A program made the position numbers and the translations under genes. A model generated the notes under the pieces. It made no database searches. It saw only the letters and a program-made list of their open reading frames with translations, and was not told the origin of the DNA. A stretch of 52,197 nt of DNA from a bacterium (lineage in GTDB: Bacteria; SZUA-182; DTGQ01; JAFGSM01), in contig JAFGSM010000022.1 of NCBI GenBank assembly GCA_016934595.1, forward strand, positions 1 through 52,197, written 5' to 3'. The stretch's first letter is position 1. Every line of letters begins with the position of its first letter. This document shows positions 187 through 8,507 of the stretch, piece after piece.

Positions 187-1464
187 ATGCATGTACATTT
201 TGGCTTAACGTGGTTTTATCAATTACTTTATTGCTTTATAACAACTGCCATTATTCTAATTTTTGCATATTTGGTTCATAGAGGCAGGAAAAAAGATGGT
301 GTTCCGGGGTCTATCCAAAATATTGCAGAGGTGTTGGTGGAAGCCCTGGACAACATAATTAGGCCTGAACTGGGTAAAGAAAAGTTACCTCATATCCTTC
401 CCTTCCTTGGCACCTTTGTTCTTTTTATATTAATATCGAACTTCTTCCTTATAGTACCCCATGCCCATCCGCCAACAAGCGATTGGAGCAATACCTTTGC
501 ATTGGCATTGATTGTTGTAATCTCCTTGCAATACTATAATATAAAGTTAAATGGACCCAAAAAGGCAGCTAAATTATGGTTGGACCCAATCCCGGGTTTG
601 GGTAAAAAGGAGGACTCAGAGGAATTAGAATCTGCAAAAATAAAAGGAGCAGGAGAAGAGCCAAATATAAAAAAGAAGTCAAGGATTTGGAAAATAGCGG
701 TTTTTCCATTTTTGATTCTCTACATTGTGGATAATTTTGCGGCATTAATCTCATTGCCAATTAGAACTATGGTCATATATTGTCTAATAGCTTCAGGCCT
801 GATTTTGGCTTTTTCACTTTGGATAAGGTCAAAGCTTAAAGGAGATAATATACCAACAGGCATCCAGTGCTTGATGGAATGGATGATTGTATCTTTATTA
901 AAAATTTTTGGATTAGAGGAAGAAAAGGATGTCTCCTTATTTAAATATGCCTTATTTTATTTTATAGGGACTTTGGCTTTAATTTTAGCTGCCGTATTTA
1001 TTCTATTTATCCCTTTTAATCATACGGCAATCGTAAATATACTAAGCGTATATTCGATACTCGTTGTAATCTTTTTTATTTTTAATTATCTAAATCACAG
1101 CTTAACTTGGCATAAAAAGGTTTTGAAGGCTGTTTGGGTGCCGGCGTCAAAGCTTTTAAATCTCTTAATGGGCTTTTTAAAACAGATTCCTGTAAAAATT
1201 ATCGTAATATTTCTTGTGGCATTGCATGTTGTTGATAATGGCGCAAGGATGCTTTCTTTATCGCTTCGACTTTTTGGAAACATTTTTGGCGAGCACAGCG
1301 TGCTTGCCATGGTGACAGATGTGGCTATTAAAAGGTATTATTTCGTTGTCCCCATTTTTATACCATTTATGATATTCTGTATGGATGTTCTCTTTGCTGT
1401 CATACAAACCTTAGTTTTTGTAATGCTTAGCCTCTTTTATTTTAAGGAGGAGCTTGGGGTACAT
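187..1464 (+). repeat. Two-unit internal duplication within atpB
   Basis: Unit 1 is encoded by about 187-765 and unit 2 by about 766-1464. Protein-level matches are colinear: YCFI with YCLI at an offset of 183 residues, a GT pair at 75-76 with one at 261-262, and IVDNFAALISLPIR with VVDNGARMLSLSLR at an offset of 168. The units are too diverged to be an assembly duplication. A long charged loop (about 138-166) is present only in unit 1. Confidence 0.75.
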
Positions 1465-1467
1465 TAG
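187..1467 (+). CDS. atpB: F-type ATP synthase subunit a, internally duplicated
   Basis: This is the membrane stator subunit that forms the proton half-channels against the c-ring. At 426 residues it is far longer than the usual 230-290. Residues 1-193 look like an a subunit with the canonical PPTSD motif (95-99) and the following helix, and stop at an arginine in the context SLPIR (193). Residues 194-426 restart as a second copy: YCLIAS at 198-203 mirrors YCFITT at 15-20, and IPTGIQ at 222-227 mirrors VPGSIQ at 39-44. The second copy ends with a canonical channel helix, SLSLRLFGNIFGEH, which carries the essential arginine (R361), and a normal last helix. The second copy has lost PPTSD, and the first lacks the end of helix 5 and helix 6. 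It is first in the operon, 110 bases before atpF. Identity as AtpB is sure; how the extra helices are used is unknown. Confidence 0.92.
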   Translation: MHVHFGLTWFYQLLYCFITTAIILIFAYLVHRGRKKDGVPGSIQNIAEVLVEALDNIIRPELGKEKLPHILPFLGTFVLFILISNFFLIVPHAHPPTSDWSNTFALALIVVISLQYYNIKLNGPKKAAKLWLDPIPGLGKKEDSEELESAKIKGAGEEPNIKKKSRIWKIAVFPFLILYIVDNFAALISLPIRTMVIYCLIASGLILAFSLWIRSKLKGDNIPTGIQCLMEWMIVSLLKIFGLEEEKDVSLFKYALFYFIGTLALILAAVFILFIPFNHTAIVNILSVYSILVVIFFIFNYLNHSLTWHKKVLKAVWVPASKLLNLLMGFLKQIPVKIIVIFLVALHVVDNGARMLSLSLRLFGNIFGEHSVLAMVTDVAIKRYYFVVPIFIPFMIFCMDVLFAVIQTLVFVMLSLFYFKEELGVH

Positions 1468-1577
1468 GTAAAAATAATAACTTAGGATACATTAGTAAGG
1501 TTTCATTTTTTTATTAAACTGATTATGGGATAATGTCAGTAACGGAATGATTGCTCTATTATTACGGAGGATGATCA

Positions 1578-2060
1578 ATGCTAGGATTTGATTTTTCTAA
1601 AACAATTTTTTTGGTAGCAAATTTTTTTATTCTTCTCTTTCTTATGAAAAAATTTTTCTTTAAACCAATAATGGAGATATTGGAGGCAAGAAAAGATAAA
1701 ATTGAAGAAGGCTTGAAGCAACGGGCAATAGCCAAAGAAGAACAGGAACAGGCATTAAGGGACAGGGAAGAGATTATTGCAAAAAGCAAATCAGACGCTC
1801 AAAAGATTCTGAATCAGACCGAGCAGATGAAAAAGGATATTATCGCTAATGCGAAGTCAGAGGCGGATAAGATTTTGAAGGACGCTAAAGCAGAGATTGC
1901 TAAAGAGAGAGAGGAACTGAGGCAAGAGATGAATCTAAAATTGATTGAACTTGTCAGTTCAGCCGCATATACCGCTCTTCCGGATCTTGCCAAACAGGAC
2001 GGTCATAAGGATTTAGTGGAGAGTGTAATCTTGGACAGTTTAAAGCGAGTGGCGCAGTAA
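1578..2060 (+). CDS. atpF: F-type ATP synthase subunit b
   Basis: This is the peripheral stalk subunit that links the membrane stator to F1. The protein has 160 residues, a normal length. One N-terminal membrane helix spans about residues 8-28. It is followed by a long, highly charged coiled coil rich in Glu, Lys and Ala (about 30-125) and a C-terminal part of the usual b type. There is no delta-like extension at the C-terminus, unlike the b-delta fusions of mycobacteria. The start follows a clear CGGAGGA ribosome site. It is placed before atpE, the reverse of the usual order, and there is a single b gene, so a b homodimer is expected. Confidence 0.93.
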   Translation: MLGFDFSKTIFLVANFFILLFLMKKFFFKPIMEILEARKDKIEEGLKQRAIAKEEQEQALRDREEIIAKSKSDAQKILNQTEQMKKDIIANAKSEADKILKDAKAEIAKEREELRQEMNLKLIELVSSAAYTALPDLAKQDGHKDLVESVILDSLKRVAQ

Positions 2061-2122
2061 AGCTTATATTGTATAATTTAAACCAATAACTGTTAATCAA
2101 AATTTTAGAAGGAGGCAGTATA

Positions 2123-2521
2123 ATGTCATTAAAATCAATATTTAAATCTGTAGAGCGTAGAATGTTTAAGGTTATAAGGAATAAAAAAACCATTTTTTAT
2201 GTGCTGACTAATACAATCTTAATATCGTTGGCCTCTCCTATTGCCCTGTGGGCTGAAGAAACAATGTCCACTATCACTACGCGGTCAGGGGAAGTCGCCT
2301 GGGTTGAGGCATTAAAAGCGGTAGCCGCGGCAATATTGCTTGGCTGGGGCGCGTTTGGAGCAGCTTTGGGAATTTCGAAGTTTGGAACGGCCTCTCTTGA
2401 AGGTATGTCCAGACAGCCGGAAATTCAGGGAAAACTTTTTATGACCATGTTGATTGGTATGGCTATTATCGAGGCATTGTGTCTTTATTGTCTGGTTGTA
2501 GCCTTGATCTTGATTATTTAG
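2123..2521 (+). CDS. atpE: F-type ATP synthase subunit c, with signal-peptide-like leader
   Basis: This is the rotor ring proteolipid. At 132 residues it is longer than the usual 75-90 because of about 45 extra N-terminal residues. These have basic residues, a hydrophobic stretch and a likely cleavage site after ALWA (44). The hairpin follows: helix 1 (about 65-93), the polar loop with RQPE (97-100), and helix 2 with the ion-carrying glutamate E117. The residue after that glutamate is Ala rather than Ser or Thr, and the helix 1 position that carries Gln in sodium c subunits is Ile, so proton coupling is the better reading. An AAGGAGG site precedes the ATG. The leader suggests Sec or YidC insertion with cleavage, as in some other phyla. 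Confidence 0.93.
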   Translation: MSLKSIFKSVERRMFKVIRNKKTIFYVLTNTILISLASPIALWAEETMSTITTRSGEVAWVEALKAVAAAILLGWGAFGAALGISKFGTASLEGMSRQPEIQGKLFMTMLIGMAIIEALCLYCLVVALILII

Positions 2522-2715
2522 ATAAAGGATTTTCATAGTTTATTGTGTCTGCACGAAGGACGCAGAATTGAACAAATAAGGAGCTTAACAATTTAATAGA
2601 AGCTATTAGTCTAATTTATGATAATAACTATTTGTTTAAAAGAAAAGATAGCTGATATCGTAAATAGATTGAATTGATTTTTATACTTGGAGCATTTTAA
2701 GGAAGGCCGGAAATT
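2522..2715 (+). other. atpE-atpA intergenic gap where atpH would be expected
   Basis: These 194 bases separate atpE from atpA, the place where the delta gene often stands. I see only a 19-codon open frame (from 2618) with no ribosome site, and no delta-like peptide in any frame. The stretch is AT-rich and looks non-coding. Confidence 0.6.
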
Positions 2716-4515
2716 ATGGAACAAGTTAAACAGGAAGGACTAAAAGAGGCTTTGAATAAAGCCGATCAACCTTTGGTCTTATTAAGCCCTACTATATATA
2801 GATCTGATTTTGTTGATAATCTGGAGAGGCAGCTTTCCGAGATTGCTGGTAAAAAGATACAGATTAAGGTATTTACAGATGCAAAGCAGGAAAGTCCGTT
2901 ATTATTTTTAAACAGGGACAAGAAGATAAATCTTGATGCCAGGCAGAGTTTTATAGGTGAGTTAGACAGAAGGTTCATGGAATTGAAGGGCGATATCCAG
3001 CAATTAAGGTCGGAGGATATCACAAAGGAACTCAGACAGATAATTGAAGCGACAAAGCCTACATTTAAGGTTGAGGATATGCGGCAGGAAGGCGTTGTCC
3101 TTCAGGTAGGAGATGGTATTGCAAGGGTTGCGGGCCTTGAACATGTAGGTTCCATGGAGGTCGTGGAATTTGCAGGCAGTGTCTATGGCCTGGCCTTTAG
3201 TTTGGAACAGGACGCAGTTGGATGTATTTTGCTTGGCGCTGAAGAGGATATCAAGGAGGGCAGCAAGGTTGTATGCACCGGCCATCAGTTGGAGATACCT
3301 GTAGGCGACGGAATGATCGGCAGGATAGTTAATGCCGTAGGGCAACCGATTGATGGTAAGGGTAAAATTCTTGCCACTAATTACAGACTGGTGGAAAGGA
3401 TAGCGCCACGCGTTGTCACACGTCAGCCTGTCCGTCAACCGGTACAAACTGGTATAAAGGCAATAGACGCCATGATCCCTATAGGCAGGGGACAAAGGGA
3501 ATTGATAATCGGTGACAGAAAGATCGGCAAGACCACCCTGGCGATTGACACCATAATTAACCAGAAAGGTAATAATTTGGTGTGTATTTATGCAGCTATA
3601 GGACAAAAGGCGGCTGCCGTAGCCAAAGTTGTGGAGGTTTTGCGAAGAGAGGGCGCCCTGGACCATACTATTATTGTAGCGGCGCTGGCCAATGAACAGA
3701 CAGCATTTAAATACCTAGCTCCATATACTGCCTGCGCCATTGGTGAGGAATTTATGGAACAAGGAAGAGACGCCTTGGTCATATATGACGATCTGTCAAA
3801 ACATGCAGTGGCTTACAGGGAGATGTCGGCTTTATTAAAAAGGCCTATCGGACGTGAGGCTTACCCGGGCGATATATTTTATGTACACTCGAGATTATTG
3901 GAGAGGGCTGCAAAATTAAGCGATGAAAAAGGCGGTGGGTCTTTGACAGCCATACCTATAATTGAAACTTTGGGCGGGGATGTGACCTCTTATATCTCAA
4001 CCAATGTTATATCCATTACTGACGGTCAGATATACCTGGAATCAGGATTATTTAATACGGGATTCCGTCCTGCTATCAATGTCGGTTTGTCGGTGTCAAG
4101 GGTTGGTGGAGCTGCGCAGACAAAGCTGATAAAGAAAATCGCCGGCAGGCTGAGAATAGACCTTGCCCAGTATCATGAAATGCAGGCATTTGTAAAGTTT
4201 GGCGCTGAGGTAGATGAGGCCACGAAGGCACAGCTTGCAAGGGGTGAGAGAGGCCGTGAATTGTTAAAACAGATTCAGTATGCTCCTATGCCTTTAGCGG
4301 AAGAGGCATTGGTGCTTTATGCCGTTGTAAATAGCCTGATGGATGAAATACCTGTCAAGAGGGTTGGCGAATTCGAAAAGGGTCTCGTGGCGTTTGCCCA
4401 CCAAAATTATCAGAATATTGTGGATATTATTCAAGAAAAGAAGGACCTTACGCCTGAGATAGATGCAGGACTCAAGGAAATAATTGCTGAATTCAAAAAA
4501 CAATTCGTTTCATAA
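2716..4515 (+). CDS. atpA: F-type ATP synthase subunit alpha with delta-like N-terminal domain
   Basis: This is the non-catalytic nucleotide-binding subunit of F1. The body is canonical: P-loop GDRKIGKTT, the [17 protein letters not shown] segment, and the arginine finger in [10 protein letters not shown]. At 599 residues it exceeds the usual 500-510 because about 95 residues precede the normal alpha start (near [15 protein letters not shown]). That extension reads like the C-terminal domain of delta/OSCP. It begins with a beta strand ending in a Ser-Pro turn, then a helix ([14 protein letters not shown]), then [11 protein letters not shown], a strand pair around [16 protein letters not shown], and a last helix with L and R at the expected places. 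The Gly-Gly of typical delta is missing. ATG 2716 follows AAGGAAGG. The alpha identity is certain; the domain origin is my inference. Confidence 0.95.
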
Positions 4516-4528
4516 GTAGAGTGTAAAC

Positions 4529-5482
4529 ATGTCACAGAAGTTGATAGATTTGAAAAACAGGATGAGAAGTGTTGAGAATATTAAGGGTACAACTGAGACC
4601 ATGTCTACTGTTTCCGCTGCAAAATTGGCCAGAGCCAGGTACAAAGCGGCTACTTTAGGTATTTTTGCTGAAAGGATGAGGCAAATTGCCTTGATACAGT
4701 CCGAACTTGCCCTTTTTTCCGAGAAAGACATGTTTTCCGAAGAGGTTTTAAATCAAGTCTCTCCATTGTTGGTCAAGAAGGTAAACAAAAACAGGATTGT
4801 GATGTTTGTCATTGCTTCGGATATAGGAATGTGCGGTAATTATAATGGCAGGATCGGCAAGACTGCTCAGGGTTTTTTAGATGGTATAATAAGGAAAAAC
4901 AAAAAGGCTGAGGTAGGTGTTTGGATTAAAGGAATCAGGGGAGAAAGGTTTTTTAAAAGGAACACCCCTTTTCCAATATTAAAAGTCGAACCCTGGTCAG
5001 ATCAAGGGGTATCAATATCTGATGCCCTGTCACTTATAATGACTATGACAGATCTCTTTTTACACAGGAATATCGATGAGATATATTGTGCCTATACAAA
5101 ATTTCTCAGTCCGGTTAAGCGGCAGCCCACGGTTATAAAGCTATTGCCTTTTAGTTTTGGGATTGAAGAGGAAACCAAGAAAGGAAAAACTGCCATAACA
5201 AAGTGGATATATGAACCGGATTCCCTGACGATCCTAAAAGAATTGATACCGATGTATTTCAAGATACAGATATTCGATATCCTTTTAGAATCTTATGCAA
5301 GTGAACAGGGCGCAAGGATGATGGCAATGGAAGACGCTTCAGACAGGGCTTCGGAAAAATTGCATGAGATGGGCATACAGTATAACAGGATGAGAAGGGA
5401 TTTAATCACACTGGATTTATTAGGTATTCTAAGTGCAGCCAGGGTAATAGAAAAAGAGTCTGCATCTCAAACAGCATTCTAG
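4529..5482 (+). CDS. atpG: F-type ATP synthase subunit gamma
   Basis: This is the central rotor shaft of F1. At 317 residues it is slightly longer than the usual 285-295. The N-terminal coiled-coil strand begins with LKNRMRSVENIKGTTETMS, the core has SDIGMCGNYNGRIGK in place of the common SDRGLCG, and the C-terminal strand contains ESYASEQGARMMAMEDAS and ends with DLLGILSAARV. The extra length is in the middle Rossmann-like part. It lies 13 bases after atpA and 15 bases before atpD, within one operon. Confidence 0.95.
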   Translation: MSQKLIDLKNRMRSVENIKGTTETMSTVSAAKLARARYKAATLGIFAERMRQIALIQSELALFSEKDMFSEEVLNQVSPLLVKKVNKNRIVMFVIASDIGMCGNYNGRIGKTAQGFLDGIIRKNKKAEVGVWIKGIRGERFFKRNTPFPILKVEPWSDQGVSISDALSLIMTMTDLFLHRNIDEIYCAYTKFLSPVKRQPTVIKLLPFSFGIEEETKKGKTAITKWIYEPDSLTILKELIPMYFKIQIFDILLESYASEQGARMMAMEDASDRASEKLHEMGIQYNRMRRDLITLDLLGILSAARVIEKESASQTAF

Positions 5483-5485
5483 TAA

Positions 5486-6931
<1,446 letters not shown>

Positions 6932-6948
6932 AAAAAGGACACACGTCA

Positions 6949-7419
6949 ATGGCAAAAGACAAGAAAAAGGGAAGGATATCCCTTGAAGTGCTCACTCCAG
7001 AGAAGGTTGTTCTTCAGGATAACGAAATAGATATTGTTGTTGTCAGGGATCTGGCGGGCGAACAGGAGGAAGGCGAGCTTACAAAAGAAAAGTATATAGG
7101 AATTTTGGCCAATCATGCGCCTATGTTGGTGCGCCTGCCAATTGCCCCGATAAGATATGAAAAGGCTGACGATGTTTATTGGGTGGTGGTTGCAGGCGGG
7201 TTCTTAGAGGTTGCTTATAACAAGGTGACAATACTTTCATTTGGAGCGGAAAAGGTTATCCAGGAACCCGATATAGATCTTGCTATCACTGCTAAAAAGA
7301 GGGTTGAGAGCTGGTTAGAGGGACAGGTAGGCGGAGTCGGATTTGATGAAAAGGCCGCTGAGGCTGATCTCAAAAAATCGGTTATCGAGCTTTACAGGGC
7401 TTCTTCTCATTCAGAGTAA
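6949..7419 (+). CDS. atpC: F-type ATP synthase subunit epsilon
   Basis: This is the rotor foot and regulatory subunit. At 156 residues it is longer than the common 130-140. The N-terminal beta sandwich starts with ISLEVLTPEKVVLQDNEIDI and contains ILANHAPMLVRLPIAPIRY and VVAGGFLEVAYNKVTILS. An acidic insertion of about ten residues (EQEEGELTKE) sits where the family usually has a short G-x-x-G turn. The C-terminal part is helical (about 108-150) and could form the inhibitory hairpin. It is the last gene of the operon, 17 bases after atpD. Confidence 0.92.
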   Translation: MAKDKKKGRISLEVLTPEKVVLQDNEIDIVVVRDLAGEQEEGELTKEKYIGILANHAPMLVRLPIAPIRYEKADDVYWVVVAGGFLEVAYNKVTILSFGAEKVIQEPDIDLAITAKKRVESWLEGQVGGVGFDEKAAEADLKKSVIELYRASSHSE

Positions 7420-7574: not shown

Positions 7575-8507
7575 ATGAAGCTAAAACTGGATTTTGAGAG
7601 TTTAGAATCACAGTGGAAAGCAAGGCAGATTGATCTATTCCCTTGGCTGGACGGCCTTTTTGCGCTTATAAGAACAAGGAAAAGCCTTATAAGAGAAACG
7701 GAAAAGAGGCTCTCTTCCTCTACGCATGCCACAATGGTGCAGTTTTTATCCTCAGATGACAGAGATTGCGCAAGAGTAGCCCGTCAGATCATCAAAAAAC
7801 AGGACCATGAATCCTTACTGCCAATATTACTCTATAGCCTTGAGAAGATCGAAAAAAAGGATTATCCCAGACGGGTAATGGAATCCCTGCTTGATTTTAA
7901 TCCGAACCTTTCATTTGGATATCTTTTGGGATATCTAAATCTGCGGCAGATGCATAAAGATAAAGTATTTCAAATGATAAGCGGGATTTTTCAGCATTTG
8001 GATGAGTCTTATCCAAGCCCTTATACGAAAGAACAATTTTTTGTTGATATTTTTTATGCGATTAGAACCGATCTAGAAGATCGTATGCCTTCTTCCAAGA
8101 TATTAAAGACCATGGAGGACTTCGAAAAGATAGTTTTGGATCTAAGGATTCTCAAACTTATATACAAAAGTATCGCCAAGAAAGAAGACGACAGGGTAGT
8201 TGAAGATGAAATGCGAAGGATTGGCAGGGAGGTTGTTATTTCTCTTAAGGGTTTGTCTTTTAAGTTTGATCATTGCGATATTATTATTGAGCAGATATCT
8301 GATGTCATTCCATACATGGCCCTTATGAGACTTGATGCAGATTTGGAATTTCTTGAGGACTTGCCGTCCAAGATCAAAACATCTCCTGTATCAAAGGATG
8401 AAAAAGAAGATATAATTGATAAGGCTAAAGCGGCTATAAAGATTATCGAACAGCCGGAGCGGTGCATTCAGGAAATATTGGATGAGCTTGAGGCGCCTCC
8501 GTTTTAA
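7575..8507 (+). CDS. Hypothetical helical protein, 310 residues
   Basis: I do not recognise this family. The protein is hydrophilic, with no signal peptide or membrane helix, and is predicted by eye to be mostly helical. Alternating Leu/Ile and charged residues and short paired helices, as around RVARQIIKKQDHESLLPILLYSLEKIEKK, recall HEAT-like or other alpha-solenoid folds, but no repeat can be called with confidence. The acidic C-terminal tail ends ILDELEAPPF. No good ribosome site precedes the ATG. It stands alone between the ATP synthase operon and rplM, with 155 and 289 bases on either side, and could be a regulator or a structural protein. Confidence 0.7.
   Translation: MKLKLDFESLESQWKARQIDLFPWLDGLFALIRTRKSLIRETEKRLSSSTHATMVQFLSSDDRDCARVARQIIKKQDHESLLPILLYSLEKIEKKDYPRRVMESLLDFNPNLSFGYLLGYLNLRQMHKDKVFQMISGIFQHLDESYPSPYTKEQFFVDIFYAIRTDLEDRMPSSKILKTMEDFEKIVLDLRILKLIYKSIAKKEDDRVVEDEMRRIGREVVISLKGLSFKFDHCDIIIEQISDVIPYMALMRLDADLEFLEDLPSKIKTSPVSKDEKEDIIDKAKAAIKIIEQPERCIQEILDELEAPPF

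Follow-up and report, generated by a model that had tools for sequence, protein, structure and literature searches.

How does an F-type ATP synthase hold its peripheral stalk when its operon contains no gene for subunit δ and its α subunit begins with a long stretch of additional residues? The window, a 52,197-nucleotide stretch of DNA, is contig C54 from its first base and raises this question at positions 187–7419, where an operon with the order a-b-c-α-γ-β-ε is found:

187–1467, forward strand: atpB, subunit a, 426 residues, with an apparent internal duplication of aH1–aH4 (PF00119 matched twice; alignment).
1578–2060, forward strand: atpF, subunit b, 160 residues, of canonical length and type (TIGR01144, 85 bits, cut-off 65.5; alignment).
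2123–2521, forward strand: atpE, subunit c, 132 residues, with a signal-like N-terminal extension (PF00137; alignment).
2716–4515, forward strand: atpA, putative fusion of a δ C-terminal domain with α, 599 residues (TIGR00962 from residue 98; open frame; orthologues in four genomes).
4529–5482, forward strand: atpG, γ (PF00231).
5498–6931, forward strand: atpD, β (TIGR01039, 724 bits).
6949–7419, forward strand: atpC, ε, 156 residues (PF02823).

Neither the open reading frames nor a profile search revealed a δ gene in this operon, where the contig ends 186 bp upstream of a, and none is present in the complete fused operons of four relatives from the same order (loci L041, L042, L043, and L121).

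The atpA product matches the α equivalog TIGR00962 with 732.6 bits, above the cut-off of 484.45, and since the match begins only at residue 98, approximately 96 residues of α are extra. The earlier note had counted about 95 such residues, and this holds, with the extension being conserved within a single order, across five genomes: it is found in all four of the other genomes of the order, at 43–66% identity over 115 residues, and in none of four other genomes of the phylum (from outside the order, the same class included). A Shine-Dalgarno sequence of the same kind precedes the orthologous ATG in each of the four relatives, and the extension has a dN/dS of 0.056–0.058 (pairs L041/L042 and L043/L121, where dS is unsaturated), corresponding to purifying selection. 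Together, these two observations indicate that the extension is a translated and selected part of α. The fused gene can be divided as follows:

2699–2706, forward strand: Shine-Dalgarno-like AAGGAAGG, 5' of the fused ATG at 2716 (sequence; kept in relatives).
2716–3003, forward strand: N-terminal extension, residues 1–96 (TIGR00962 start; orthologues; purifying selection).
2770–2994, forward strand: δ/OSCP C-terminal-like domain, residues ~19–93, predicted as strand, helix, strand, strand, strand, helix (AF2 and Foldseek; hhalign to the δ C-terminal domain).
3004–3051, forward strand: α N-terminal helix, retained 3' of the fused domain (alignment with canonical α subunits).
3007–4509, forward strand: canonical F-type α, residues 98–598, with the P-loop GDRKIGKT (TIGR00962, PF02874/PF00006/PF00306).

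The structure of the extension was predicted with AF2 from an input alignment of four fused orthologues only, which contained no δ sequence. The window model comprises helices at residues 6–15, 30–44, 74–93, and 100–112 and strands at 20–24, 50–54, 62–64, and 69–72, with moderate confidence (mean pLDDT of 63, and 63–66 across models) that falls below 50 in the last helix. When the models were compared with 350,542 PDB chains in Foldseek, δ/OSCP structures were found at ranks 2, 3, 4, 5, 7, 9, and 10 for the window (probability 0.87–0.99), and the better model, that of L043, had δ/OSCP of bacteria, chloroplasts, and mitochondria at all of ranks 1–13 (best probability 1.00, E = 0.0045), with an engineered δ-α chain (9jc1) at ranks 29–30. 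Profile alignment with hhalign against 79 δ sequences paired residues 24–94 of the extension with the δ C-terminal domain (P = 2.2e-4), the score being equalled by one of 500 column permutations. Aligned to the separate domains, the extension gave P = 1.3e-4 for the C-terminal domain and P = 0.18 for the N-terminal domain, and alignment to segments of α gave scores of at most 13.6 versus 25.6–28.0 for δ. Scored with a δ HMM, L043 and L015 each exceeded all 4000 shuffles and the score of the window extension was reached by 16 of 4000; the signal was weak for L041 and L042 alone, with 148 and 535 of 4000 shuffles, respectively, reaching the score. In many Bacillota and Chloroflexota where δ is the gene immediately upstream of α, tblastn matches to the extension run in register into the C terminus of the separate δ, through its stop codon. 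Small gaps suffice for a joint alignment both with concatenated δ C-terminal domain plus α and with a natural fusion, L162, described below. The earlier note had proposed that the order of elements, including a GKK turn, follows the δ/OSCP C-terminal domain, and the structure predictions, hhalign, and alignment all agree with it.

A match to the OSCP profile, which the same note had put forward as a check, was absent from the Pfam search: PF00213 did not match the extension of the window, L043, or L121 above its gathering score, and NCBIfam models did not recognize the extension either. The note counted the lack of a match to the OSCP profile or fold as a refutation; the profile fails, whereas the fold agrees. 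The conserved GG of δ is replaced in the extension, which may account for the missing Pfam match. A PDB sequence search with the extension profile gave chance matches only, and a fold search of BFVD gave nothing. It could be argued from the missing Pfam match, from Foldseek E-values that are modest even at best, and from the IspF and thioredoxin-like folds lower down the Foldseek list that the extension has no relation to δ and represents a domain specific to this lineage, with a small α/β topology that is alike by chance. This appears very improbable, given the unbroken run of δ/OSCP at the top of the list for the better model, the independent choice of the δ C-terminal domain by hhalign, and the position of the gene in the operon slot of δ, within an operon that retains no other δ. 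The slot is seen in L121, where the order is a-c-b-[fusion]-γ-β-ε with 57 bp separating b from the fusion. The fold match, the choice of the C-terminal domain by the profiles, and the δ slot in this relative all point to a δ C-terminal domain on α. No reading frame resembling a remnant of the δ N-terminal domain was found in the gap separating the fusion from b or c, and the extension itself, at ~96 residues that align to the C-terminal domain alone, lacks the six-helix N-terminal domain. Thus, the extension is very probably the δ C-terminal domain fused to α, in an enzyme that has lost the δ N-terminal domain; the covalent join, in an operon devoid of the δ N-terminal domain, had been suggested earlier and is upheld.

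Fusion of δ to α is an architecture that is already known, natural examples without the N-terminal domain having been named in Acidaminococcus fermentans and in UniProt entries G4Q3K6 and A0A1I2C5T3 (PMC12229609). The fused operon of the window therefore adds a new and diverged lineage to a rare class of enzymes that was described in 2025. Like these cases, it carries a δ C-terminal domain-α fusion without the N-terminal domain in a natural operon; it differs from them in belonging to other organisms and to an order that also carries a second, canonical F-ATPase. A further example was found in G409 (Bacillota, the phylum of Ammonifex), where the fusion L162 (5160–6962, 600 residues) matches PF00213 over positions 100–172 only, with E = 1.6e-20. 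Its operon order, a-c-b-[δ C-terminal domain-α]-γ-β, and its restriction to the C-terminal part are shared with the fused operons described here, whereas its δ part is clearly recognizable and its subunit c has Na+-type residues. No other δ was found in the 2.88-Mb contig of this 2.9-Mb genome, indicating that a natural F-ATPase can dispense with the δ N-terminal domain.

The claim that atpH is missing held for the fused operon and for those of the relatives, but not for the genome as a whole. A genome-wide search of the source genome identified exactly one OSCP-family gene (C272:18684), situated inside a second, complete, and canonical F-ATPase operon with the order a-c-b-δ-α-γ-β-ε, and the four relatives likewise have exactly one real δ each, again in the second operon. 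A separate, complete atpH elsewhere in the genome is what the earlier note had named as a refutation; as the C272 atpH belongs to its own full enzyme, the claim fails at the level of the genome in its literal sense only. The consistent presence of one δ in all five genomes nevertheless raises the possibility that the full-length C272 protein joins the fused enzyme in trans, leaving the fused domain accessory or vestigial. The α N-terminal helix, the normal contact of δ, is retained, and supply in trans has been suggested for the δ-less F-ATPases of Kuenenia (PMC2936114). Such an arrangement is judged improbable, because purifying selection on the extension is strong and its predicted fold remains of the b-binding type, because the fusion in G409 exists with no other δ in its genome, and because the α subunits of the fused and C272 operons are only 51% identical, so that they would probably not cross-assemble easily.

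The link to the stator is also rearranged naturally in mycobacteria and in N-ATPases, and both cases differ from the window: in the mycobacterial fusion δ is joined to b, and in N-ATPases δ is absent and b is lengthened, with α being ordinary in each. A fusion of the mycobacterial type is ruled out by subunit b, which at 160 residues has no δ part. The missing δ gene would also fit an N-ATPase-like pump in which another subunit compensates for δ, yet TIGR03324 (alternate F1F0 α) reaches only 596.3 bits, below its cut-off of 750.5, while TIGR00962 passes; subunit b is short compared with the 246–255 residues of b in Kuenenia F-ATPase-2 and -3 (PMC2936114), and the gene order is not β-ε-X-X-a-c-b-α-γ. 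N-ATPase identity was rejected on these grounds, and a δ-less pump of this sort is extremely improbable.

The best explanation as a whole, and one held with high confidence, is that the fused operon encodes an F-ATPase of the δΔN-α type. It would be a second F-type ATP synthase that carries the b-binding δ C-terminal domain on the α N terminus and has lost the δ N-terminal domain. Set against it are the weak sequence similarity to δ, with no Pfam OSCP match and the GG lost, the only moderate AF2 confidence, and the complete δ of the second operon, which could in principle act in trans. The closest parallel is the engineered FoF1 of Bacillus PS3 (9jc1, 9jc2), in which the δ C-terminal domain (residues 105–178) was placed on the α N terminus and the N-terminal domain deleted, giving an enzyme with an ordinary b and no separate δ. 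Unlike the window, this enzyme is man-made, with a recognizable PS3 δ, the ε C terminus removed, and a single subunit a, whereas the fused domain of the window is too diverged for Pfam OSCP.

In PS3 F1, the δ N-terminal domain lies on the threefold axis and restricts the enzyme to one stalk (PMC12229609). The 2025 engineering study found that fusion of the δ C-terminal domain to α removes the one-stalk limit and proposed a natural counterpart in Acidaminococcus (PMC12229609). The engineered δΔN-α enzyme bears as many as three b2 stalks (two on average), every one of them accompanied by an a subunit, has an H+/ATP ratio of 5.8 compared with 3.0, and makes ATP at about half the proton-motive force (PMC12229609). 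With a C-terminal domain on each α and the axial, stalk-limiting N-terminal domain gone, the enzyme of the window would offer three equivalent b2 docking sites per F1, and b2 would be expected to dock canonically on the fused domain, b itself being canonical by TIGR01144 and alignment. The earlier note had assumed one peripheral stalk choosing among three δ-like domains. As an engineered enzyme of the same design binds up to three stalks (PMC12229609), that assumption is not the best guess.

By analogy with the engineered enzyme, the probability that each F1 of the window enzyme can take up two or more b2-a units is close to evenly balanced. Additional units would raise the H+/ATP ratio and, as in the PS3 enzyme, permit ATP synthesis at a lower proton-motive force. 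It is a serious prospect too, if somewhat short of an even chance, that the enzyme keeps one stalk in spite of its fused domain, with a single b2-a unit occupying one site and the other two being empty or capping F1. Solved F-ATPases were all single-stalk until recently, three-stalk particles made up a very low proportion even in the engineered fusion (PMC12229609), and the enlarged subunit a of the window may crowd the c-ring. A single stalk is harder to reconcile with the engineered enzyme, which according to SDS-PAGE has a mean of two a and two b2 per F1 and shows a doubled H+/ATP ratio (PMC12229609), and with the enzyme of Chloroflexus aurantiacus (9itj and related entries), which has two a, four b, and two δ chains per entry. 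Judging from these PDB chain counts, a natural multi-stalk F-ATPase, apparently with two stalks, seems already to have been solved, although its δ is a separate protein and its α is unfused, in contrast to the window.

Subunit a is the second unusual component of the operon. An internally duplicated a of about 426 residues with two PF00119 stretches is found in three of the five genomes (the window, L041 at 5442–6722, and L042 at 5380–6657), whereas in L043 and L121 subunit a is single and lacks the duplication. In the window, PF00119 matches twice, at 226–579 (profile positions 2–119) and 775–1443 (profile positions 2–216). Going by its alignment, the protein reads best as containing a diverged second aH1–aH4 between the original aH1–aH4 and aH5–aH6, plus a truncated extra aH5, in which the Arg is kept in the window and replaced by Lys in L041 and L042. 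Subunit c lacks the Na+ ligand pattern of G409 and looks H+-type from its residues. A more specific proposal, that the three fused δ domains recruit two to three b2-a units, with a carrying the second aH1–aH4 in three of five genomes, to form a low-gear enzyme with H+/ATP well above 4 beside the canonical F-ATPase, is offered tentatively; the extra membrane segment of a might restrict the number of a subunits around the c-ring. The canonical C272 F-ATPase would then be the ordinary-gear enzyme, for other conditions.

The number of stalks and a subunits sets the H+/ATP ratio, which was long thought to be dictated by the c-ring alone. Here the same architecture as in the engineered enzyme appears in a small, unrelated phylum, where purifying selection maintains it throughout an order in cells that also have a canonical enzyme, and together with G409 it makes the question of whether multi-stalk ATP synthases serve low-energy life testable in several lineages. 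In a quick α tree, the fused clade of the window (support of 100) stands apart from the canonical second copy and from G409. An AU test did not reject a single clade of the window-order and G409 fusions (p-AU = 0.33), so these fusions may have arisen once or twice, and a common origin of the two α subunits of the source genome was likewise not rejected (p = 0.54). A survey of 386 random genomes with TIGR00962 listed five α subunits outside the order with open frames of more than 560 residues; these proved to be stop-free upstream frames and not fusions, and in G435, G422, and G463 the large open frames likewise belong to ordinary α subunits.

Several minor features of the locus were also observed. 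Subunit c of the window (2123–2521) has a signal-peptide-like N-terminal extension of ~55 residues that is also present in L041 and L042 and absent from L043 and L121. In L041 (12218–13144) and L042 (12217–13125), ε is 302–308 residues long, its N-terminal domain being interrupted midway by a long, repetitive insert rich in Pro, Asp, and Met (MRDDAPRVMDD..., DLPEMPEAPPM...), and the ε of the window has a short insertion only. The 3.2-Mb source genome (G000) also seems to contain three V/A-type A-B subunit pairs (C31, C113, and C221; loci L005–L007 and L010), which with its two F-type operons would apparently amount to five rotary ATPases. Finally, a conserved gene of ~310–334 residues with no obvious annotation lies 3' of ε in the window (7575–8507), L041 (13163–14167), and L042 (13143–14144).
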